This document shows, piece after piece, positions 3,664 to 54,100 of a stretch of 64,000 nt of DNA; within the stretch, counting starts at the first letter, position 1; each line of letters begins with the position of its first letter. The translations under genes and the position numbers were made by a program. The stretch is from Xanthostigma xanthostigma (taxonomy: Eukaryota > Arthropoda > Insecta > Raphidioptera > Raphidiidae): positions 6,014,001 through 6,078,000 of the forward strand of contig OY754465.1 of the NCBI GenBank assembly GCA_963575645.1, written 5' to 3'. The notes beneath the pieces are model-generated. The model was given only the letters and a program-made list of their open reading frames with translations. It made no database searches and was not told the DNA's origin.

Positions 3664-4165
3664 TAGATGTTAACGGCGCCAAACCAGGCGACGCCAAAAC
3701 ATATTTTTAATATTATTATACAGTGGAAGAATAAAAATCTCTGGTACGCCACTGGACTAAAAATACATTAAGGGTTTTTCAAAGAATATAGAGAAAATTA
3801 GAGATAAGAGTAGAATGCGAAATCCAAATGAACCCAAGACGTAAATATTTACTTTAGTTGATACGGAAAACAATAGAAACATACATGGTATCTATTTCGA
3901 AGGCCAGGTCATAAAAACCAACAGAATTCGTAGAACCCCCCTATCTCAACCCCTTAAAATCAGTATAACTAACTACGCAGGCGCAACGCGATTACATGCC
4001 CGTTTGCGATTGGTTGAAGGCATGCGCTCGCAGACGAGTTAAGAGTGGGGTAATTTTGAGAAAAGGGCAGAACGCGGCGAAAATTCATTCATTATTGATT
4101 ATTCATTCATTCATTAATCATTTGTTCATTCATTATTCACTATTCATCATTCATTTACTGATCAT

Positions 4166-4199
4166 TCAGTCTTTGCTCATCGGTCGTTGAAGTTGGTTG
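4166..4199 (+). promoter_or_regulatory. Inr + DPE core promoter of the LTR
   Basis: TCAGTC at 4166-4171 fits the insect initiator TCAKTY with +1 at A4168. GGTTG at 4195-4199 lies exactly at +28 to +32 and fits the downstream promoter element RGWYV. No well-placed TATA box upstream. The same pair occurs in the 3' LTR at +8482. Confidence 0.6.
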
Positions 4200-4248
4200 T
4201 CGAAGATTATCATGTAAGTACATTTTGGGTTTCGTAGTTCGGTAGGTT

Positions 4249-4271
4249 AGACATTGCTTGCAGCAATGTCT
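4249..4271 (+). other. perfect 9-bp hairpin in R
   Basis: AGACATTGC, loop TTGCA, GCAATGTCT: a perfect stem in the predicted transcript leader, repeated at 12731-12753. Role unknown; packaging, dimerisation or translation control are possible. Confidence 0.6.
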
Positions 4272-4370
4272 ACCACTGCATAATAGTATATTATAGGGAA
4301 TTAAGAATTTATTAGAAGTAGTTATTATATATTTTGTATACTCGTAGTTAATGTAAATTTCATTCTTGTA

Positions 4371-4376
4371 AATAAA
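4371..4376 (+). terminator. LTR polyadenylation signal AATAAA
   Basis: AATAAA about 200 nt after the predicted start site, followed by a GT-rich stretch (CTCGTGTGATG). The active copy would be the one in the 3' LTR at 12853-12858. Confidence 0.5.
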
Positions 4377-4546
4377 CCATTGTACATATCTGATCTCGTG
4401 TGATGAAGCTTTACTTTTAATACGCTACCAATACTGAACAACGATAAAGATCCGCTAGGGACAGAACCCGTCCCTTTTTTAAATACCGTACGCACGTGGT
4501 ATGACTTTTCTGATTTGATTGGTCGACTACGGCGTGCGGGTAACAA

Positions 4547-4563
4547 TGGTGTCAGCGGTGGAA
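4547..4563 (+). promoter_or_regulatory. primer binding site, tRNA-Leu-like
   Basis: TGGTGTCAGCGGTGG starts one base after the LTR. It is the expected complement of a tRNA 3' end (CCA) and resembles tRNA-Leu acceptor/T-arm sequence. The exact tRNA needs the host tRNA set. Confidence 0.75.
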
Positions 4564-4591
4564 CATAACAATTCCGTCGTTGGCTACCAAA

Positions 4592-4621
4592 GGGTAACAA
4601 TGGTGGCAGCGGTATGGGATC
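4592..4621 (+). repeat. second copy of the LTR-end/primer-site sequence
   Basis: GGGTAACAATGGTGGCAGCGGT (4592-4613) repeats 4538-4559 (last 8 bp of the LTR plus the primer site) with one mismatch. At 4601-4621 it extends as a tRNA-Leu-like match of its own (TGGTGGCAGCGG then GGGATC). Confidence 0.8.
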
Positions 4622-5031
4622 TTTAAGTAGTTCAGAAAAAAAAAAAAACAAGTAAGCAACGTCGTGCGAGATGCAGTGTATGATGTATAAGTTGATTTGC
4701 TGATATAAAAACACGTGCATTTTGGCACACTAAACGAGTAAACGGGATATTGAAGGGTGAGTATTGCCAAACGAGTTATAAATAACCACGGGGACAATCA
4801 AGGGCATGTTAAGTGAGTTTGAGTGAGTTATTAACAATAATAAACAGTTAATAGAGTGTCAAGTAGCAGAAGTTCGGTTTTATCGATTTTTATTGTGTTC
4901 ATACTTTGTCAAAAAAAAAGGGTTTTTGCGAGTCGCGCGTATATGAGTGCTTCAAAAATTTAGCTTTAATTTGTAGAAAAGTTTTGTTTTGCCTATTCAA
5001 ATACCCGGTTAGAAATTAACATTCAGTCAAA
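4622..5031 (+). other. untranslated leader before gag
   Basis: No long frame. Presumed to hold packaging signals; none can be named from sequence. Confidence 0.5.
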
Positions 5032-6102
5032 ATGGCCACGCCATCTAGAGTGTCGAGTGATAGCACTAGCCCACAAGTAGTTACGGTGCAAATGCCGCGT
5101 GTCATGCTAGGCAGTTTCGCGAATACGATAGAACCTCTCACAGGTAAAGAAAGAGTAGCGGAATATTTTGAGCGATTGGAACAAAGAGCAGAATTGGACG
5201 GGATCACGAACGAACAACTGGTGAAAGTATTGAGGTGCAAACTGAGCGAAAGTGCATACCAATACTATCGCAGCGATACAAAATTGGCATCCGCCACTTA
5301 CGAGCAGGTAAAGACTTCTTTGATCAACCATTTTAAACCACCGACAATACCCGGGGTGGCGCGATTTAAGCTTTCTCAGGTTTACCAAAAGGCCACGGAA
5401 ACAGTTCGCCAATTCACGACAAGAGTGAAATTAGCGGGACAAGATCTGCTAGACGAAGAACTGAAGACAGCCACTGAAGCTGAAAAACCAGGGATAGAGC
5501 GTATGAATGCGCGCGACATACTAACACAGTTCAAGGTCGGGTTGAAGCGAGAAATGCAACAGACAATCGGCATCACTCTCACGCTACAAGATGGTCTTAC
5601 GATCGACACCGCAGCGGCTATAGCGGAACAGGCTGAACTACATCGAGCATTATTGGACACGACGCGGGGCACAGTCCAGGCCGTATTACCGGACACAGAC
5701 TGGCAGCCGGCAGCACCAAAACAACGAGCGCACACCATGGACAGGCAGGTAAGTAGCGGGACAAATATGGAATGTTTTAATTGTTTTAGGATGGGACACA
5801 TGAGACGCGATTGTAAAGCAGCAGTAGTGTGTCGCTATTGCAAAAAATCGGGGCACCAGGAGAGAGAGTGCTACTCGAAAAAACGTGCCCAAAGCAATGG
5901 CGTCACGCAACGAGTCCCAAATAGGTGGAGCCAGCCGCCTCAGCTGCGGGCGCGACGTCCACAAGCGCCGCCACCAGAAGAAAGGTCGCGACATTTAGAG
6001 CACGAAGCTACAGCACAAACTCAGCAGGAGAGGTCTTTAAACGCGAGTCGCACTTCGGACAGACTACCCCAACCCGAGGCGCGGACAAACGCGAGACGGT
6101 GA
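5032..6102 (+). CDS. gag: Gag polyprotein (capsid-nucleocapsid), 356 aa
   Basis: Structural protein of the retrotransposon particle. The start is chosen at ATG 5032 because its context CAAAATGG is a strong insect start and it is the first ATG of a long frame. Residues about 20-200 read as a Ty3/gypsy capsid-type Gag domain (motifs such as EYFERLEQRAELDG). Two CCHC zinc knuckles follow: C248-x2-C-x4-H-x4-C261 (CFNCFRMGHMRRDC) and 267-280 (CRYCKKSGHQEREC), which bind genomic RNA. The tail is Gln/Arg/Pro-rich. It overlaps pol by 178 bp; TTTAAAC at 6036-6042 lets a share of ribosomes move to the pol frame, giving a Gag-Pol of about 1876 aa. No internal stop. Maturation sites were not assigned. 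Confidence 0.95.
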   Translation: MATPSRVSSDSTSPQVVTVQMPRVMLGSFANTIEPLTGKERVAEYFERLEQRAELDGITNEQLVKVLRCKLSESAYQYYRSDTKLASATYEQVKTSLINHFKPPTIPGVARFKLSQVYQKATETVRQFTTRVKLAGQDLLDEELKTATEAEKPGIERMNARDILTQFKVGLKREMQQTIGITLTLQDGLTIDTAAAIAEQAELHRALLDTTRGTVQAVLPDTDWQPAAPKQRAHTMDRQVSSGTNMECFNCFRMGHMRRDCKAAVVCRYCKKSGHQERECYSKKRAQSNGVTQRVPNRWSQPPQLRARRPQAPPPEERSRHLEHEATAQTQQERSLNASRTSDRLPQPEARTNARR

Positions 6103-9100
6103 TACATATCAATGCACAATATCGCAGGGGTGTTCCACATATTCTGTTCGCGGAGGTGGGATCACAAACCATACGTTTGATGGTGGACACAGGCTCGGCA
6201 GTGTCTATCATCAAGCCAGTAGTAATACCGGGGTGTACAGGTGAGTACAATAATAACATTAAACTAACAAGCATTACGGGGCACGAGTTGGAAAGCAGAG
6301 GAACCGTGGAGGTCAATTTAATTATCGGCGACAGGACGCTGCAGTCACTATTCGTAGTGTGCGACAAGTTACCGATAGACGTAGACGGACTTTTGGGCCG
6401 TGACTTTTTACAGGAACACCAGGGTATGATAGATATGGGAAACGGCACGATCTATTTAAACGGGGTGCCAGAAAGACTGTATGCAGAAGGTGAACTTGAC
6501 AAAATTTACGCCATATGTAATGCCGGGGGAAGAGTAAAGAAGAATAAACGCTATAATGGGGGTTCACAGCACAGCCAGAACATACGTGACGAAAAGGGGT
6601 CGCGGAACAACAAACGAGCAAGTAATGACGGGGCCGCAAAATCAAAAATTTTCAGAAGTTTTAAACAGGTACGTGAAAATATTAGATGTACTACCGTAGG
6701 AGCGCGAAATGGGCTAGACGCTGAAAGTCGAACAGCCACGACACTCAAATGCGGAGGGGATCTAGAAGACTCGTCGTCGGCGCCACTGCCATGGTGCCCG
6801 AACGACAGCGAGCAGAAGGTTGGCAGACCTTTTGTAGAGCTGAAAGAGGCCCTCGAAATTCCCGCCCGAACCGAGTGTGTGTGCCAAGCGAGACAACAAA
6901 TTGGAAAGCCCAAGGAGTCCCTACTCATCGAGCCGGTCGAAATTCTAGTGCACGGAATTTTGGCAGCGAGAGTTTTAACGACTGTCCAACATAACAACGA
7001 AGTAACGGTACGCTTGATCAACGTCACCGAACGGCCTTTGACGGTCCCCGCCAAAACAGCAGTAGGCGTAGCTAGTATTATGCGCGAGAAACCCCCCGTG
7101 AGCGCAACGTATGCACCAGTACGTGGAACCACGAAGCTCAGTGAAAAGCTGAAGATCGAACTGGGTCATCTGAGTAAGAACAAGCAAGAAAGAGTTAAAC
7201 AATTTATTAATAGTTATAGAGATATATTTGTGATGGACGGTGACAGGCTGGGCGTCACCAAGGAAGTGCAGCATCGAATAATCACGGGAGATGGGCAGCC
7301 CATAGCACAGGCCCCTTATAGAGTTCCACATGCACAGAGGGCCAAGCTGCAGGAAGAGATAAACAAAATGCTGCGAGATGGCATTATTTCAGAATCAGGG
7401 TCACCCTGGAGTGCTCCAGTTGTTCTAGTGCCAAAGAAATCGGAAAATGGGGAAGAAAAAATACGGGTGTGTATCGACTATCGTAAATTAAACGCTATTA
7501 CTAAACGGGACTTCTATCCGCTGCCAAATATACAGGAGACTTTCGATTTAATGCACGGGGCGAAATTATTCACCACCTTAGATCTGGCTAGCGGATACCA
7601 TCAGGTAGAAGTGGCGCCAGAGGATCGCGAGAAGACAGCGTTCAGTACTCCCACGGGACACTACCAGTTCAACCGTATGCCGTTTGGACTCGCGAACAGC
7701 CCTTCCACGTTTCAGAGACTGATTGACTCCGTATTATCAAAATTGAAAGGAGACGTCTGTTTGATTTACTTGGACGACGTGATCGTCTACAGCGGAGACG
7801 ACGTCGAGGAACATCTGGATCGACTGCGACGAGTATTCGACTGTTTTCGTAAGTCCAACCTCAAATTAAAACCCGCTAAATGCTCGTTCTTGAAATCAGA
7901 AACGAATTATCTAGGGCATATAATATCGGCTACAGGCGTTAAGCCCGACCCGGAGAAAATACAGGCAGTCAGAAACTACCCGCAGCCTAAAAGTGTTAAA
8001 GATATTAGGGCATTCATTGGATTAACGGGATACTATAGGCGGTTCATACCAAATTTTTCTCAAATAGCCAAGCCACTAACGCAATTGACAAAGAAAAACG
8101 TAACATTCGATTGGAATAGTGAAGCGCAGGGTGCATTCGAGCTACTCAAAAACGAGTTGAGTGGCGAACGTGTGTTAGCCTATCCAGATTTTACGAAGAC
8201 ATTTCTGTTAACTACGGACGCCTCAGGAGTTGCGCTGGGGGCCATTCTAAGCCAAGAACACGAGGGGAAGGAAAGACCAATTGCTTACGCTAGCCGGCAA
8301 CTCAACAAGGCCGAACAGAATTACTCGACAACGGAGCGCGAATGTTTAGCGGTGATATGGGCCATTAAACACTATAGGTGTTATTTATATGGGAGGAGGT
8401 TTGTAATTATAACCGATCATCGGCCACTGCGATGGTTGCTGTCAATAAGAGATCCGAGCTCAAGGCTCGCGAGATGGGCGCTAACGCTAGCAGAGTACGA
8501 TTTTGAGGTGACATACAAGCCAGGTCGACTACACGGTAACGCCGACGCACTATCGCGCGTCATAATTAGCACCGTGAATCCTACAGACACGATCTTCGAG
8601 CCGGTATGGGATCGGGAACACATTTACGAACAGCAGCGAGGAGATCCGGAGATCCGCGACATCATTCGAGAGGTAGAAACCGAACCAGAACAGAATGCGC
8701 ATTACCTAGACGACGACGGGATACTATACAAAACGAGAACGAACGCCAAGGAGGAAGACCAGTTAATGGTCCCGCGGTCACTTATAAATAGGGTACTCTA
8801 CGATTATCACAATTTACCATTTGCAGGTCACCAGGGATACGACAGGACGCTATCTTTTATCAAGCAAAGATTTACGTGGAAAAATATGGCGAGGGACGTG
8901 AAGAGATATTGCCAACAGTGCGTAACATGCGCAAAACGGAAGGCGCATAAGAACGCGCCAGCCCCACTACAGGAAATGCCGAACGTTTCAAAACCATTCG
9001 AGCGCGTATCGATGGATATTGTGGGACCACTGGTGACAACACTTCACGGTAACAAATACTTGCTCACGTTTCAGGACTACTTCAGCAGATACGTGGAGGC

Positions 9101-10661
9101 TATACCAATACCAGACCAGAAGGCTGAAACTGTGGCCAGAGCTTTCGTTACCCAAATTGTGGCCCGCCACGGAGCGCCGCGGACCCTACTGACAGATCAG
9201 GGGACTAACTTTTTGTCTACGCTTATGAAAGAGGTATGCAAAATCTTACATATTAATAAAATCCAGACCACACCTTACCACCCGCAGAGTAACGGCATGA
9301 TAGAACGCATGCACCGCGTCATTAAAGACATGCTGTCCCACTACATACAACCAGACCAGCGAGATTGGGACGAGTGGATACCGTACGCCCTAATGGCTTA
9401 CAGATCCCAAATACATTCAGCCACAGGGGAGACGCCATTTTATCTGGTGCATGGCCGACACATGGAGCTTCCGTTCGACGAAATCATAAAATCCCGAAGA
9501 GTGACATATGACTGCGCTGAAAATTATGCGGCTGAGATGACGCAACGATTGCAACAGGCGTTCACAAGGGCCGCGCAACAGCTACATGACGCGGCGGGGA
9601 AAGCCAAACGCCAGTACGACAAGCGCACTAAGGAGGTTACCCTCGAGGTAGGCGACCGAGTGTATTTACACGACCCGAGCAATAAGCTGCACCGGTCGAA
9701 GAAATTAACGCGACCATGGGTAGGTCCATATGTGATCACCGAGCAGAAGGGACCGGTGACCTTCAAAATAAAAAACGTCAAGGGAGGTGCGACGCAAGTG
9801 GTACACGCAAACCGACTGAAGAAGTGCAGTGCGAGCGCAGCAGACGCCGCAACCGAAGAAGGCCCGGGAGAAGTTTCAACAGGCCGCGAGCCGCGAAGCG
9901 CTCAGGAGACAGACCCGCCTAACATTACCGAGGTTGTCGGGGACCTTTTTACAGCGCCGGGGGACTATTCGTTGGCACATTGCGTGTCAGCAGACTTGAA
10001 GATGGGGCAGGGTATCGCCGCGTGCTTCCGCCGAAAGTTCGGTCAGACAGACGAACTGAAGAAACAGACACCACAACCTGGTAATGTAGTGTGGCTGAAG
10101 GATCGCGACCGGTATGTATATTATCTAGTGACCAAACAAGGGTACTACCATAAACCCACCTTAGCGAATCTACGCAATTCGCTAATTGCAATGAGGGACC
10201 ATATGACAAGGGTGAACGCGACTAAACTGGCTATGCCGCGAATAGGCACTGGTCTAGACGGGCTGAGTTGGGAAAGAGTTAAAGAGATGATTCAGGAAGT
10301 ATTCCAAGGGACAAAAATAATTATTCGGATTTACAGATTAGCAAAGCAGGAGGAGTTGCCAGCGCAATTTGAAATTTTGATAGCGCCTGCTGACAACGGA
10401 GAAGGACCACATCCACGTGAAGATAACAACCAAACCGACCCTCCGTCTACCCCGCAAGCGGGACCTCAGTGGAGCACCTGGAGGCCTTCGCCTAACGCCG
10501 CAGGGTCCGATAGCAGCAGTGACGACGCCGAAGACGACACGCCGATTGCCGAGGCACCACCGAGCCATCGGACACCAAGCCGGAGCGGAACCGAGGGGTA
10601 TCATACACGCAGTCAAGGGCCAGCACCTGACGCACCATGGGTGCTCAGAAGAAGAATCTAA
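5925..10661 (+). CDS. pol: Pol polyprotein: protease, RT, RNase H, integrase, macro domain (1578 codons)
   Basis: Replicates and integrates the element. The frame opens after a TAG at 5922-5924 and is entered by -1 frameshift at 6036-6042, so the first 38 codons are not translated. Residues counted from 5925: aspartic protease with DTGS (88-91) and GLLGRD (155-160); reverse transcriptase with LDLASG (Asp 553) and YLDD (615-618); RNase H with Asp 765, the TERE motif near 803-806 and TDHRPL (Asp 831); integrase zinc finger H962, H969, C996, C999; integrase catalytic triad D1031, D1091, E1127 (the last two 35 residues apart, the canonical spacing); GPY/F-type module with PWVGPY near 1264. All catalytic residues are present and there is no stop or frameshift. 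Residues 1333-1475 form a macro domain, then a Pro/Ser/Asp-rich acidic tail. The macro domain is unusual for Ty3/gypsy Pol. Confidence 0.97.
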   Translation: MEPAASAAGATSTSAATRRKVATFRARSYSTNSAGEVFKRESHFGQTTPTRGADKRETVIHINAQYRRGVPHILFAEVGSQTIRLMVDTGSAVSIIKPVVIPGCTGEYNNNIKLTSITGHELESRGTVEVNLIIGDRTLQSLFVVCDKLPIDVDGLLGRDFLQEHQGMIDMGNGTIYLNGVPERLYAEGELDKIYAICNAGGRVKKNKRYNGGSQHSQNIRDEKGSRNNKRASNDGAAKSKIFRSFKQVRENIRCTTVGARNGLDAESRTATTLKCGGDLEDSSSAPLPWCPNDSEQKVGRPFVELKEALEIPARTECVCQARQQIGKPKESLLIEPVEILVHGILAARVLTTVQHNNEVTVRLINVTERPLTVPAKTAVGVASIMREKPPVSATYAPVRGTTKLSEKLKIELGHLSKNKQERVKQFINSYRDIFVMDGDRLGVTKEVQHRIITGDGQPIAQAPYRVPHAQRAKLQEEINKMLRDGIISESGSPWSAPVVLVPKKSENGEEKIRVCIDYRKLNAITKRDFYPLPNIQETFDLMHGAKLFTTLDLASGYHQVEVAPEDREKTAFSTPTGHYQFNRMPFGLANSPSTFQRLIDSVLSKLKGDVCLIYLDDVIVYSGDDVEEHLDRLRRVFDCFRKSNLKLKPAKCSFLKSETNYLGHIISATGVKPDPEKIQAVRNYPQPKSVKDIRAFIGLTGYYRRFIPNFSQIAKPLTQLTKKNVTFDWNSEAQGAFELLKNELSGERVLAYPDFTKTFLLTTDASGVALGAILSQEHEGKERPIAYASRQLNKAEQNYSTTERECLAVIWAIKHYRCYLYGRRFVIITDHRPLRWLLSIRDPSSRLARWALTLAEYDFEVTYKPGRLHGNADALSRVIISTVNPTDTIFEPVWDREHIYEQQRGDPEIRDIIREVETEPEQNAHYLDDDGILYKTRTNAKEEDQLMVPRSLINRVLYDYHNLPFAGHQGYDRTLSFIKQRFTWKNMARDVKRYCQQCVTCAKRKAHKNAPAPLQEMPNVSKPFERVSMDIVGPLVTTLHGNKYLLTFQDYFSRYVEAIPIPDQKAETVARAFVTQIVARHGAPRTLLTDQGTNFLSTLMKEVCKILHINKIQTTPYHPQSNGMIERMHRVIKDMLSHYIQPDQRDWDEWIPYALMAYRSQIHSATGETPFYLVHGRHMELPFDEIIKSRRVTYDCAENYAAEMTQRLQQAFTRAAQQLHDAAGKAKRQYDKRTKEVTLEVGDRVYLHDPSNKLHRSKKLTRPWVGPYVITEQKGPVTFKIKNVKGGATQVVHANRLKKCSASAADAATEEGPGEVSTGREPRSAQETDPPNITEVVGDLFTAPGDYSLAHCVSADLKMGQGIAACFRRKFGQTDELKKQTPQPGNVVWLKDRDRYVYYLVTKQGYYHKPTLANLRNSLIAMRDHMTRVNATKLAMPRIGTGLDGLSWERVKEMIQEVFQGTKIIIRIYRLAKQEELPAQFEILIAPADNGEGPHPREDNNQTDPPSTPQAGPQWSTWRPSPNAAGSDSSSDDAEDDTPIAEAPPSHRTPSRSGTEGYHTRSQGPAPDAPWVLRRRI
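6036..6084 (+). promoter_or_regulatory. -1 ribosomal frameshift signal (TTTAAAC plus stem-loop)
   Basis: The heptamer T TTA AAC (6036-6042) is in the gag frame in the X XXY YYZ register and inside the gag/pol overlap; after the slip the frame reads VFKR in pol. After a 5-nt spacer a stem can form: 6048-6051 with 6081-6084, one mismatch (6052/6080), 6053-6058 with 6074-6079, and a 15-nt loop. Loop bases ACCCC (6066-6070) could pair with GGGGT (6127-6131) as a pseudoknot; that part is speculative. Confidence 0.85.
9921..10350 (+). other. macro domain (TARG1/OARD1-like) at the Pol C-terminus
   Basis: Pol residues about 1333-1475. Diagnostic blocks: NITEVVGDLF (first strand), YSLAHCVSADLKMGQGIAA (ADP-ribose-binding loop), KFGQTDELK, YYLVTKQGYYHKPTLANL, and MPRIGTGLDGLSW with a following amphipathic helix. 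This order is that of the TARG1/OARD1 (ALC1-like) macro domains, which remove ADP-ribose from acidic residues of proteins. K1404 (in LVTK) and D1445 (in GLD) are in the places of the catalytic Lys and Asp of human TARG1 as I recall them, so activity is plausible. It is in frame with integrase with no stop. Likely acquired from a cellular gene; role in reversing host ADP-ribosylation is inference. Confidence 0.9.
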
Positions 10662-11333
10662 TAATAATCTTTCTTTTGTTTCAGAGCCGATTCTTTTGTT
10701 GTTTTTTTTTTTTTTTCTGTCTGTTGGGTATTTTGTAAATATGAGCGTAACCATACTATAAGTCATAGCGGACAGCAATAACCAAGATGTCGAAAATAAA
10801 AAGGGATAGCGGTAGTAATAAATTCCATAATAGGTAGATTTTCTTCATATTTAATCTAGAAAAATTATTCCTTTCGGGTGATATAGTTATTGTGAAGATC
10901 TTGGTTCTTGTTGGGTCAGTTAGAGTATACTTTTACGGATAAGTTTAATAATGTGAAGAGGAGAGTCAGTAATAGTACGCCTTTATTGTAATATGAAGGG
11001 GAAGTACACCATTTCAATAGAGGAAACCTAAAGATAATTGAAAGAATACATATGTAGCAATGACGTTAATAATGGTGGAATTCTCCTTGTTCGAAGATTG
11101 TAACCAATAATTTTTTTTATGTTATATTATGTTGTTAGAGACCAATTTTCTATGACCCAAAAAGAGACAAAACTGTATGTGAGCTAATAAACTTAAGTGA
11201 GTGCCGCGAGATACATTAATCAGAAGTGAAAGAGTGACTAAGACATAGTAAACTGTGTAAAAGTGTGTAAGGCAGAGACCTTTTTGTTATAATAATATAT
11301 ACTAATTAACAAGACGTTCGAAAGCGCGAAGTT
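10662..11333 (+). other. post-pol region, no gene
   Basis: AT-rich, stops in all frames, with a poly-T run near 10701-10716. It may be the remains of an env region or 3' untranslated sequence. Confidence 0.5.
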
Positions 11334-11453
11334 ATGATGTACGAGAATTTAATATTAACGGTATTGTGCGGGGTCGCGGTCAAACATTACGACGATATCA
11401 CTACTGGAGATAAAAGACTGTCAATACCAGGTGAAGAATATCTAGTAGGCTGA
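11334..11453 (+). CDS. short reading frame with a hydrophobic N-terminus (39 aa), env position
   Basis: ATG ATG at 11334 opens a 39-codon frame. Its start MMYENLILTVLCGVAV is short, hydrophobic and signal-peptide-like. It stops at 11451. The next open stretch (11449-11871) is in another frame. Position after pol fits a broken or spliced env/accessory gene; no family resemblance could be confirmed. Confidence 0.35.
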   Translation: MMYENLILTVLCGVAVKHYDDITTGDKRLSIPGEEYLVG

Positions 11454-11871
11454 AGCATGCATACAGCTACTGCAAGACGCCGACTACACGGATCGTCCAA
11501 AGGTGGAGGTCCAACGACAAGTCACACACTGCGGGAGGTACTCTCACGCATCCCAAGTGAGAGGAGAGTTCGACGTCGAGCGCCAAGCCATAGTAAACAC
11601 GCTGACAAGAAGCTTGTCGCGTACTCCGACAAACCTACAAGTTATAAACCTCAGCAACGCGATCAGCAAAGAAGCAACGACCAAGCTAATCACTAGCTAC
11701 ACCCGAGGCGATGCAACGACAGCAAAATTCACCCACCGAGCGATCGCCCGAGTTTTCAAATCTACCAGAGCCAGCAGCAACCGACCGGAACCAGCCGTGA
11801 CACCGTACAAGGGTGTAATAATCCAGCTGCAAGAGACGCCGGCACATCACGACATAACCCGAAATAGTTAA
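11449..11871 (+). CDS. unrecognised open frame in env position (about 140 codons)
   Basis: Open from after two tandem stops (TAG TAG, 11443-11448) to TAA at 11869-11871; the first ATG is at 11503 (122 codons). Composition is less AT-rich than its surroundings and rich in Thr, Arg, Gln and Ser; Cys residues occur only near the N-terminal end. No transmembrane segment. Could be an exon of a spliced accessory product, a degraded env, or chance. Not recognised. Confidence 0.35.
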   Translation, partial: AEACIQLLQDADYTDRPKVEVQRQVTHCGRYSHASQVRGEFDVERQAIVNTLTRSLSRTPTNLQVINLSNAISKEATTKLITSYTRGDATTAKFTHRAIARVFKSTRASSNRPEPAVTPYKGVIIQLQETPAHHDITRNS

Positions 11872-12048
11872 ACTAAACCAGGGAGTGGAGAAGAATAATT
11901 TCCTTTTTTTTTAACTAACTGTGAGGTTAAAAACGTAATTGGTTGGTCATAGAAAAGTGTTAAGAGTTATAAGTTTTTTTTTTGTAGTTCAACAATGGTT
12001 ACTAATAAGTTGATTCATAGACATAAGTATGAGCCCGGTGTCGTACCA

Positions 12049-12060
12049 GAAGGGGGGGAG
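12049..12060 (+). repeat. upstream polypurine tract copy
   Basis: GAAGGGGGGGAG, closely matching the terminal polypurine tract 88 bp further on. Possible second plus-strand primer site. Confidence 0.5.
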
Positions 12061-12136
12061 TCAATACTCCGTAAAATTCGTTTTTTTTTTGTTACTAAAA
12101 GAATCTTAGTCCCTGTTGAGACTAAAATTTTTTTTT

Positions 12137-12149
12137 AAGGGGGGAGTGG
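12137..12149 (+). promoter_or_regulatory. polypurine tract (plus-strand primer)
   Basis: AAGGGGGGAGTGG directly abuts the 3' LTR (TGTTAAC at 12150) and follows a T-rich run, as expected for the plus-strand priming site. Confidence 0.9.
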
Positions 12150-13027
12150 TGTTAACGGCGCCAAACCAGGCGACGCCAAAACATATTTTTAATATTATTA
12201 TACAGTGGAAGAATAAAAATCTCTGGTACGCCACTGGACTAAAAATACATTAAGGGTTTTTCAAAGAATATAGAGAAAATTAGAGATAAGAGTAGAATGC
12301 GAAATCCAAATGAACCCAAGACGTAAATATTTACTTTAGTTGATACGGAAAACAATAGAAACATACATGGTATCTATTTCGAAGGCCAGGTCATAAAAAC
12401 CAACAGAATTCGTAGAACCCCCCTATCTCAACCCCTTAAAATCAGTATAACTAACTACGCAGGCGCAACGCGATTACATGCCCGTTTGCGATTGGTTGAA
12501 GGCATGCGCTCGCAGACGAGTTAAGAGTGGGGTAATTTTGAGAAAAGGGCAGAACGCGGCGAAAATTCATTCATTATTGATTATTCATTCATTCATTAAT
12601 CATTTGTTCATTCATTATTCACTATTCATCATTCATTTACTGATCATTCAGTCTTTGCTCATCGGTCGTTGAAGTTGGTTGTCGAAGATTATCATGTAAG
12701 TACATTTTGGGTTTCGTAGTTCGGTAGGTTAGACATTGCTTGCAGCAATGTCTACCACTGCATAATAGTATATTATAGGGAATTAAGAATTTATTAGAAG
12801 TAGTTATTATATATTTTGTATACTCGTAGTTAATGTAAATTTCATTCTTGTAAATAAACCATTGTACATATCTGATCTCGTGTGATGAAGCTTTACTTTT
12901 AATACGCTACCAATACTGAACAACGATAAAGATCCGCTAGGGACAGAACCCGTCCCTTTTTTAAATACCGTACGCACGTGGTATGACTTTTCTGATTTGA
13001 TTGGTCGACTACGGCGTGCGGGTAACA
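12150..13027 (+). repeat. 3' LTR, 878 bp
   Basis: Same length and, by eye, same sequence as 3668-4545. The predicted polyadenylation signal in use is at 12853-12858. Followed by target duplication TAGA (13028-13031). Confidence 0.97.
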
Positions 13028-13031
13028 TAGA

Positions 13032-51719: not shown

Positions 51720-52770
51720 TTTTTTTTTTTTACATACATAAACGCGCAGCAGCGAGGCTATATGCGTTACTAAAAAAGAAAGAATAGGTTACACTGTTCT
51801 ATAAGATATAACTGCTAAATGTAATTATTATTAAGTGTAAAGTAGGTTAGAATGCACAGTAGCAAGTTTCACTTCTCCAGAGAGTAAGCAAGCATATGTA
51901 TACATTCTTGGCGCAAGTGTGTTCAAGTCTATACCCCACTTTATGACATATGTTCTTATTGTATGAGAATATCTTTATTGTTAGTTGAGTTAGTGCAGTG
52001 CCTCAGGGATGAGGCGACGGTCTTGTGGCTAAGAGAAGCACATAAAGGAATCGTCAAACCACGCACATTATATACAACGTGAACGGCGAGAGACGGAACA
52101 CATCGTTCACGTTGTGGTTTATAAAACGCAGCCAAACCAACCGATTTCAAGCAAGAAACATGTTGCCAATCTACAATAGGCATGATGACAGTATAAAAGA
52201 ATCAAAGAGTAAATGGTTTTAGACAAAAATATATGTTAAATCGGAAATGTTGACTGAAACACCGAATGACGTCACGCCTTCTTAAATCAAAGAGAATATA
52301 AGCACTTGAAGTAAACAGTCAGCGTGTCGTTTGAATTTTTATTGCGATCATTCACATCGTTTAGTTGACTTGTAGTTTATTAATTTTTGTGTTTTTTTTA
52401 TAACATTTATGTCATAAGTTATTTTTGGGGTTAGTTAACTTGCAACTAAATAAAACCGTACTATTTTTACTACTAAGTACCTAGTTTTAAGAAACTACTT
52501 AATATAACTCATATCATTAAGTAAGTTTACATATCCTTCTAAGAAATAACTCTGAACCACAGCTCTACACCCATAAATACAACATCTAATGTCAGCCGTC
52601 ACTGAAGCATAAGACGCTACAAAATGTATTTACGAACCTCCGTTAGTATTTTATACACATTCCATTTATACAGGACACCGGTACTGCCACCATCAATCTC
52701 CGACAATAAAGCAACCTTTTTAGATTTTTGTAATCGTTACAATTTTCTACCGTCAAATATATTATTTCTT
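51720..52770. other. no gene; promoter-like motifs near 52267-52325
   Basis: TGACGTCA (CRE-like) at 52267-52274 and ATATAAG at about 52297, followed by CAGTCAG near 52317. No downstream coding frame, so unproven. Confidence 0.3.
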
Positions 52771-53600
52771 TTTGTAGACATTAGTTCATGACGGAAACAG
52801 TTTGTTCGAATTATTTATTTACTCGTATTATAGGTTAATTCAATTAAAAGTGAGGTTATGATCAACAGTATACATAATACATATACGTTTATCAAGGTAA
52901 ACATAGTAGATGCATGTTGTTTGATTATAACCTCTCTTTTACTTTTGAATGAAATAACCTGTTTTACTAAACAATTATAAAAATAAGAGAATAAAATATA
53001 TAAATCAAAATTAGATGCTATCGAAACAAATAGAGTTTTTGAAGTACGATTTACATCAAGCTTTTTGTAGATATTAGTTCATGACGGAAACAGTTTGTTC
53101 GAATTATTTATTTACTCGTATAATTCAATTAAAAGTGAGGTTAAGATCAACAGTATTACGTTTATCAAGGTAAACATAGTAGATGCATGTTGTTGTTTGA
53201 TTATAACCTCTCTTTTACTTTTAAATGAATTAACCTGTTTTAATAAATAATTATAAAAATAAGAGAATAAAATATATAAATCGAAATTAGATGCTATCGA
53301 AACAAATAGAGCTTTTGAAGTACGATTTACATCAAGCTTTTTGTAGATATTAGTTCATGACGGAAACAGTTTGTTCTAATTATTTATTTACTCGTATATA
53401 AGTTGATTCAATTAAAAGTGAGGTTAAGATCAACAGTATTACGTTTATCAAGGTAAACATAGTAGATGCATGTTGTTTGATTATAACCTCTCTTTTACTT
53501 TTAAATGAGTTAACCTGTTTTAATAAACAATTATAAAAATAAGAGAATAAAATATATAAATCAAAATTAGATGCTACCGAGACTATTATAGCTTAAGAAA
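52771..53600. repeat. tandem repeat, about 280-bp unit, three copies
   Basis: Units start TTTGTAGAYATTAGTTCATG at 52771, 53064 and 53340 and end ...TACGATTTACATCAAG. Within each, AAAAGTGAGGTTA and TAACCTCTCTTTTACTTTT are inverted. The third unit is split by a LINE fragment; its end lies at about 54102-54126. Confidence 0.85.
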
Positions 53601-53606
53601 AATTAA

Positions 53607-54100
53607 TGTTTGTGTTCCTAGGCCGCATAAGTCAATATTTAAAAGATTTTTTCTATATACGGCTCCAAATATTTTTAATATATTACCAGTGAATCTAAAA
53701 TTCACAGAAAATAAAAATCAGTTCCGCAAGAAACTTAAGGAATGGTTATTAACGCATAATTCTATTGAAATGTTATTTTTCACAGTTCAATGAGTATATA
53801 ATCAGCTATGAATCTGTATAAATTATGACTTTAGCCTTAAAACATAAATATTTGTAAAAATTATACTAAAATTTAATTACTCATTTAAAACATCCAAATT
53901 CATATGCAGGCCGTACTATAGTACTTATATTATTTATTGTTTACAACGAGCACGCTCGATCTATTTTTTGTTCGCGCTACTAATACAGGAATACCTAAAG
54001 TAGCGCTGTATTGTCTCTCTGTGTTAAGTGATAATGCTTTTTTTGTTTATTATTGTATTTTATGAGACAAATATATTATTTCTATTTTCTATTTCTATTA
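53607..54100 (+). pseudogene. 3' end of a non-LTR retrotransposon (CR1/jockey-like RT C-terminus)
   Basis: Plus-strand frame ending TGA near 53791-53793 reads ...FFLYTAPNIFNILPVNLKFT, then ENKNQFRKKLKEWLL: the N-x-LP...F++-L+-WLL ending of many CR1/jockey-type reverse transcriptases. A short 3' untranslated part ends in TTTCTATTTCTATT simple sequence. 5'-truncated insertion in the third tandem unit. Confidence 0.65.

Follow-up and report, generated by a model that had tools for sequence, protein, structure and literature searches.

Macro domains occur in several RNA virus families, where they are thought to counter host ADP-ribosylation (PMC7232374, accessible part), and fish endogenous retroviruses, which are long terminal repeat (LTR) retroelements, occasionally have open reading frames (ORFs) for such a domain (PMC4977317, accessible part, citing Basta et al. 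2009). In orchids, Ty3/Gypsy elements encode an active AlkB demethylase of N6-methyladenosine (PMC9289625, accessible part). According to the accessible part of PMC7050489, which gives residue 125 as Glu125, the sequence having Asp, the cellular enzyme TARG1 (also OARD1 or C6orf130) is an interaction partner of PARP1, removes ADP-ribose from the ends of nucleic acids by hydrolysis and moves to the nucleoplasm upon DNA damage; in vitro, it cleaves ADP-ribose that is ester-linked or bound through phosphate to nucleic acid ends (PMC6582358, accessible part). We describe here a locus of the insect Xanthostigma xanthostigma. The window, i.e., the whole analysed stretch of 64,000 nucleotides (contig OY754465.1, positions 6,014,001 to 6,078,000; G000:C2:6014001-6078000 in our numbering of the 623 Mb, 28-contig genome that was searched), contains at 3668-13027 an intact Ty3/Gypsy LTR retrotransposon with LTRs, gag and an open pol, and its Pol carries a TARG1-type macro domain.

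The element (Table 1) has the LTRs, the 4-bp TAGA duplication and the Pol order of protease (PR), reverse transcriptase (RT), RNase H (RH) and integrase (IN) that define Ty3/Gypsy (Metaviridae) elements, and its insertion appears recent because both LTRs are identical. An earlier note, made from the DNA letters alone, had described an intact, recent-looking LTR element with a macro domain in frame behind integrase, and this description holds: the Pfam order in Pol is PR, RVT_1, RT_RNaseH, Integrase_H2C2, rve, Integrase_p58_C and, last, Macro. No chromodomain match was present in the window Pol (Pfam, up to E=0.01), so the element does not qualify as a chromovirus.

The Pol macro domain is of the TARG1/OARD1 type, within the ALC1-like class. 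Against a cutoff of 22 bits, Pfam Macro (PF01661) reaches 23.6 bits when run on the entire Pol and 27.2 bits (E=3.9e-6) on the piece alone; phmmer against PDB chains finds human C6orf130/TARG1 at E=1.2e-41; and the AlphaFold2 model of the domain (pLDDT 94.5) has TARG1 as its best PDB match, at a root-mean-square deviation (rmsd) of 0.6-0.8 A and about 52% sequence identity to the human protein. Thus, sequence and fold agree on the best match, and the catalytic Lys and acidic residue are both present: K1404 and D1445 pair with the human TARG1 Lys and Asp in the sequence alignment, and the structural alignment superposes model residues 74 and 115 on K84 and D125 of TARG1. The profile and structure checks that the earlier note proposed therefore uphold its assignment and its retained catalytic pair, with the domain limits drawn in slightly from its 9921-10350. 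A chance match is ruled out as the source of the domain, given that a macro hidden Markov model (HMM), built without eight divergent carriers and run on 127 proteins with an RT match, hit 20 of them, all eight held-out carriers included (the weakest being P0021, at 15.5 bits), and gave no match among 762 reversed or shuffled ones. When six carriers were scanned together, Pfam Macro itself overlooked three of the domains (those of P0009, P0015 and P0017), which may partly explain why the domain had escaped notice.

The same domain recurs in public Pol proteins, in four different places. Of the 16 proteins returned by the macro-region search, eight are Pols or Pol remnants with the macro after integrase (P0002, P0003, P0005, P0008, P0012, P0013, P0014 and P0016), the arrangement for which the earlier note had suggested searching; P0009 has it before the protease and P0015 between protease and RT, and P0001, P0004, P0006, P0007 and P0011 are cellular-type proteins without Pol domains; the sixteenth, of 1486 aa (P0010), is unplaced. 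A further search with the RNase H-integrase part gave 1005 proteins, and among the best 120, which were examined, ten carriers were detected by phmmer and twelve by profile, the latter including the weak matches P0021, P0115 and P0130; most of these 120 have Pfam RT, RH and IN, one source name includes Ty3-G, and the named relatives are for the most part arthropods. The four places are before PR, between PR and RT (P0015, P0024 and P0116), between RH and IN, where the macro starts 30-80 residues past the RNase H part, and after IN, where the distance from the GPY motif is 45-77 residues. K and D are retained in 15 of 19 carriers, and the 14 family-invariant macro columns are retained by most carriers outside the set that defined them.

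Several observations stand beside these searches. P0001 (with two TARG1-like domains), P0004, P0007 and P0011 are large cellular-type proteins, three of them insect-named, and are possible donors; P0010 (from a JGI contig) has 1486 aa, a TARG1-like macro and RNA-dependent RNA polymerase motifs by eye, and Pfam assigned it no family. The carrier Pol P0002 belongs to the insect-type clade and has a fungus, Erysiphe pulchra, as its recorded source, which reflects either contamination or horizontal transfer. P0026, also a Gypsy Pol with a macro, bears the annotation tropomodulin isoform X2 of Leptinotarsa decemlineata and is probably a chimeric gene model. P0166, P0168, P0170, P0172, P0178 and P0181 represent a further Gypsy lineage with the macro soon after RNase H, in fragments only. 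P0008 (1354-1377) and P0012 (1021-1063) have a CCCH zinc finger behind the macro, under Pfam cutoffs, a pairing that resembles host ZAP/PARP proteins. TARG1-like folds are also found among the predicted viral proteins of BFVD, in Kadipiro virus VP8 (47% identity), in thrips flavi-, negev- and virga-like viruses and in a CRESS DNA virus. The macro-alignment search of IMG/VR gave 124 loci, of which 80 were kept, on contigs of up to 394 kb that are probably phage, and a search of IMG/VR and GTDB contigs with the IN-macro protein had no matches.

Within the Xanthostigma genome we made one search, by the macro domain, and the copy counts are accordingly those of copies found through it. It gave 93 matches, including 21 window-family copies that are 96-100% identical, with a full-length macro and both K and D in every one; a 22nd copy, L146, has about 225 bp deleted in frame inside the macro, K1404 included. 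Stops in the domain of other copies, which would have told against the earlier note, were found in none of the 21. Since these 21 copies lie across 9 contigs of 41-84 Mb, an assembly error or a lone odd copy is ruled out. All nine full-length copies are in an open 1578-aa frame, and the other twelve (L089, L090, L092, L096, L097, L100-L103 and L106-L108) have one common in-frame deletion of 2.6 kb (875 codons, with a 7-bp breakpoint ambiguity) that takes out RT, RNase H and the IN core, so that the post-protease part runs directly into the IN C-terminal module, the macro and the tail. Eight of them have a frame of 703 aa, one of 701 aa and three of 534-542 aa, with gag complete and ungapped in 11 of the 12 (L090 is without much of it) and protease complete in 10 (L096 and L100 are without part of it). 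The twelve represent a non-autonomous form derived from the window family.

Among the 71 other matches, 35 lie within open frames of at least 1,000 aa. Ten other-family loci, chosen for their matching domain, were examined around it, and the macro stands after IN in seven, between PR and RT in two (L131 and L132, the protease position having been checked) and between RH and IN in one. L143 is a cellular TARG1-like exon whose best match is a Tenebrio molitor protein (58% identity), likely a host TARG1-like gene. L124 (C12:16032542) was considered as an exon-split host gene and rejected, with no GT-AG intron by eye, about 0.7 kb between the halves and repeated ATGAAGA borders; it (G000:C12:16032480-16033780) appears to be a macro copy interrupted by a nested insertion.

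Do these carriers go back to one capture or to several? Pol trees were made with 121 rows, leaving out five sequences with short RT, RH or IN, and, more carefully, with 54 rows (20 carriers and 34 hand-picked non-carriers), the carriers without RT (P0012, P0014 and P0016) staying outside both. Carriers are scattered in the two trees, and the 54-row tree has 9 presence changes, at least 7 of them forced by starred branches, and rejects a single Pol clade of carriers (approximately unbiased test, p-AU 1.7e-60). The macro-only tree, of 140 columns and with 15 of 76 rows dropped, is poorly resolved and does not reject a single origin of its 19 carriers (p-AU 0.30). When ten own-genome loci were added (20 of 76 rows dropped), a single clade of the 11 own-genome macros was rejected (p 0.0016), and L117 and L119 joined P0008 and P0012 in their insect after-IN lineage (support 99/97); on both grounds, we count at least two macro lineages in this genome. 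Without L117, L119 and the long-branch L121, a single clade of the remaining 8 was not rejected (p 0.487). Constraining the window macro with the RH-IN macros made the tree slightly better, by 2.1 log units (p 0.554), and constraining it with the insect after-IN macros made it slightly worse, by 3.3 log units (p 0.43). Because the carriers are not one Pol clade, the best reading is repeated capture or relocation of the macro; repeated capture is likely, and relocation within Pol is possible, most of all where the window and the RH-IN carriers related to it are concerned. The case for repeated capture is built on the Pol tree and on where the domain is inserted, the macro alignments being too short for that.

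Selection on the domain was estimated from synonymous and nonsynonymous variants across window-family copies, as an omega-like ratio with a one-sided binomial p. RT, RH and IN together have 16/5 synonymous/nonsynonymous variants (0.09; 9 copies), the macro 9/10 (0.33, p 0.017; 21 copies), the IN C-terminal linker 7/20 (0.91) and the Pol tail 11/16 (0.43, p 0.030). In the full-length copies alone the macro has 5/6 (0.36, p 0.086). In the deleted copies alone it has 8/9 (0.34, p 0.026), the tail 10/15 (0.45, p 0.043), gag 7/8 (0.33, p 0.033; 11 copies) and the protease 3/3 (p 0.14; 10 copies), next to 4/13 (1.04) in the C-terminal linker and 7/23 (0.99, with one stop) in the protease-RT linker. 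This weakly suggests that gag, macro and tail, unlike the linkers, are constrained even without RT and IN in cis. Template switching may mix full-length and deleted copies, since no difference in macro or tail is fixed between these two sets and they have 9 of the 19 macro variants in common; the macro variants private to deleted copies number 4/4 (p 0.088).

How might such a domain work? A host TARG1/OARD1-type macro would have been captured in frame between the integrase GPY/F module and the old Pol C-terminal tail; the fusion appears to have left Pol otherwise whole, because the macro-less P0025 ends in a tail similar to that of the window Pol (YHTRSQGPAPDAPW vs. P0025 YQTRSRGPVADIPW). By analogy with TARG1, the domain would bind and cleave ADP-ribose held by an ester bond or through phosphate on the ends of nucleic acids. 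It may enter the particle as part of Gag-Pol, or be released from Pol by cleavage, and would strip host-added ADP-ribose from element proteins (at Glu/Asp) or from RNA or cDNA ends. We lean towards the view that the macro is an ADP-ribosyl hydrolase protecting the element as a counter-defence, and we infer the catalysis, the substrate and the benefit. This fits best because the same host enzyme type sits on several Pol lineages and TARG1-like folds occur in predicted insect-virus proteins; the presence of these folds in the Kadipiro, thrips and CRESS DNA virus proteins also makes a shared arthropod host pressure plausible.

Several results weigh against this protective role. Four of the 19 carriers are altered at K or D (P0018, with Glu for Asp, P0024, P0115 and P0130) and the macro of P0021 is a weak remnant only, so that, as far as their residues tell, hydrolase activity is dispensable in some lineages. 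P0020 and P0022, within the clade nearest the window Pol, have no macro domain; the less conserved carriers retain 22/28 and 33/42 of the invariant columns, and the degenerate three 17/42. The constraint on the macro is weaker than on RT-RH-IN (0.33 vs. 0.09), similar to that on the tail (0.43), and does not significantly exceed that on the preceding linker (Fisher p=0.12). Finally, our literature search found no title on a PARP- or ADP-ribosylation-based defence against insect retrotransposons.

Another explanation, which we think unlikely, is that the macro, in the position of a chromodomain, reads ADP-ribose on chromatin or DNA breaks and guides integrase, with catalysis incidental. Most carriers do have it adjoining integrase, either beyond the GPY motif or on the side of RNase H, and some lineages retain the domain despite a changed dyad; however, it also occurs before PR (P0009) and between PR and RT (the three public Pols, L131 and L132), its frame is uninterrupted in the twelve copies without the IN core, and a mere reader would need neither of the K and D that most carriers keep. 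Somewhat less probable still is a role in integration housekeeping, in which the hydrolase would clear PARP1-made ADP-ribose from integration gaps or the intasome for repair, with no defence involved. The reported TARG1 partnership with PARP1, action on nucleic acid ends and movement after DNA damage (PMC7050489, accessible part) agree with this, as does the adjacency of many macro domains to IN, but no macro was seen in 108 of the best 120 of 1005 relatives (some of them truncated), which points to integration independent of the domain, and the PR-RT and N-terminal places and the copies without IN speak against it as well. That the macro is a host exon transduced by chance, co-copied, functionless and slowly lost is the least probable explanation, since the decayed P0021, P0115 and P0130, the L146 deletion, the faster divergence of the macro than of Pol (P0003/P0005: 80% vs. 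95% identity) and its modest constraint are outweighed by one macro subtype on several Pol backbones with the active site mostly retained, by the nonsynonymous deficit and by nine open full-length frames out of nine.

If the macro does protect these elements by removing ADP-ribose, retrotransposon control would be tied to ADP-ribosylation. A bolder version, doubtful at present and offered tentatively, is that insect-type Ty3/Gypsy elements independently and repeatedly took TARG1 as an in-cis counter-defence, and that derivatives without RT, RH and the IN core, most of them with gag and protease and in effect parasites of the parasite, keep the macro under selection; if so, insects would have an undescribed defence against retrotransposons that is based on ADP-ribosylation. 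In either case these elements are a natural experiment, with a single host enzyme type in different Pol places of separate lineages; the wider group has intact carriers, changed-dyad carriers and macro-less relatives side by side, and this genome has intact copies beside RT/IN-less derivatives that retain the macro.

Table 1. Features of the Ty3/Gypsy element in window coordinates
Feature	Position	Strand	Details
Target site duplication TAGA, left	3664..3667	+	same as 13028-13031
5' LTR	3668..4545	+	878 bp, TGTTAA...TAACA; 100% identity to 3' LTR
Primer binding site, likely	4547..4564	+	TGGTGTCAGCGGTGGAAC; starts one base past 5' LTR; presumably tRNA-Leu-like
gag ORF	5032..6102	+	356 aa; Retrotrans_gag, CCHC zinc knuckle
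pol ORF	5925..10661	+	single open frame, 1578 aa; overlaps gag in a different frame
Aspartic protease	6135..6434	+	about residues 71-170; PF00077 1.2e-6, residues 76-169
Stretch deleted in 12 of 21 full-macro window-family copies	6998..9615	+	present in window
Reverse transcriptase	7365..8024	+	residues 481-700 as delimited here; PF00078 3.7e-37, residues 502-667
RNase H	8115..8534	+	residues 731-870; PF17917 2.7e-43, PF17919 9.7e-38
Integrase zinc domain and DDE core	8745..9344	+	residues 941-1140; PF17921, PF00665
GPY motif, integrase C-terminal module	9723..9731	+	residue 1267; PF22938 9.3e-10
TARG1-type macro domain	9927..10346	+	Pol 1335-1474
K1404 codon	10134..10136	+	TARG1 K84 equivalent
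D1445 codon	10257..10259	+	TARG1 D125 equivalent
Acidic, proline-rich Pol tail	10347..10658	+	ends YHTRSQGPAPDAPW
Polypurine tract	12137..12149	+	AAGGGGGGAGTGG; precedes 3' LTR
3' LTR	12150..13027	+	878 bp
Target site duplication TAGA, right	13028..13031	+	

Elsewhere in the window, a 122-aa open frame lies between pol and the 3' LTR (11503-11871, +). A tRNA-like sequence at 2821-2893 (-; Rfam 36.8 bits, anticodon CTT by eye, missed by ARAGORN), 775 bp from the element insertion, may be a short interspersed element or a pseudogene. A tandem array of a 276-bp unit in 2.9 copies occupies 52768-53594, and a 77-aa frame at 53560-53790 (+) resembles by eye the end of a LINE reverse transcriptase.

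Our search of the literature, which left subscription papers and Repbase reports outside, brought up no macro-bearing Ty3/Gypsy element, and neither macro nor ADP is mentioned in the accessible part of a paper that describes other enzymes in rotifer LTR elements. The earlier note knew of no such Ty3/Gypsy lineage, and that part stands; the unfamiliarity does not extend to the domain, which is recurrent, nor to LTR elements at large, where the fish endogenous retroviruses, the sole LTR-element macro domains that we found in print (accessible text), are already known. The latter are LTR retroelements with a macro domain as well, but vertebrate ones that have it, by the review's wording (PMC4977317, accessible part), in additional ORFs, whereas the window family is Ty3/Gypsy and has it in frame in Pol. 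The orchid AlkB elements are likewise Ty3/Gypsy elements with a host modification-removing enzyme, proposed to act against host surveillance (PMC9289625, accessible part), but they are plant elements of one lineage with an additional ORF, whereas the macro carriers concern ADP-ribose, within Pol and in several lineages. Alphaviruses, coronaviruses and rubella virus share with the window a macro domain encoded by a mobile genome. The bacterial DarG antitoxin belongs to the same ALC1-like class (PMC7050489, accessible part) and is the best NCBIfam model for the window macro, but at 50.3 bits the domain is far under the DarG equivalog cutoff of 250 bits and is not counted as DarG. Chromoviruses also have an additional domain past the integrase C-terminal module, but there it is a chromodomain, in place of which the window Pol has a macro. 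Human TARG1 resembles the window macro in sequence, in predicted fold and in the K84/D125 dyad, but it is a separate cellular protein, and the window macro is a module of a retrotransposon Pol. In summary, macro ORFs in LTR retroelements were already known, and what appears to be new is a TARG1-type macro domain inside Ty3/Gypsy Pol, recurrent and in four places.

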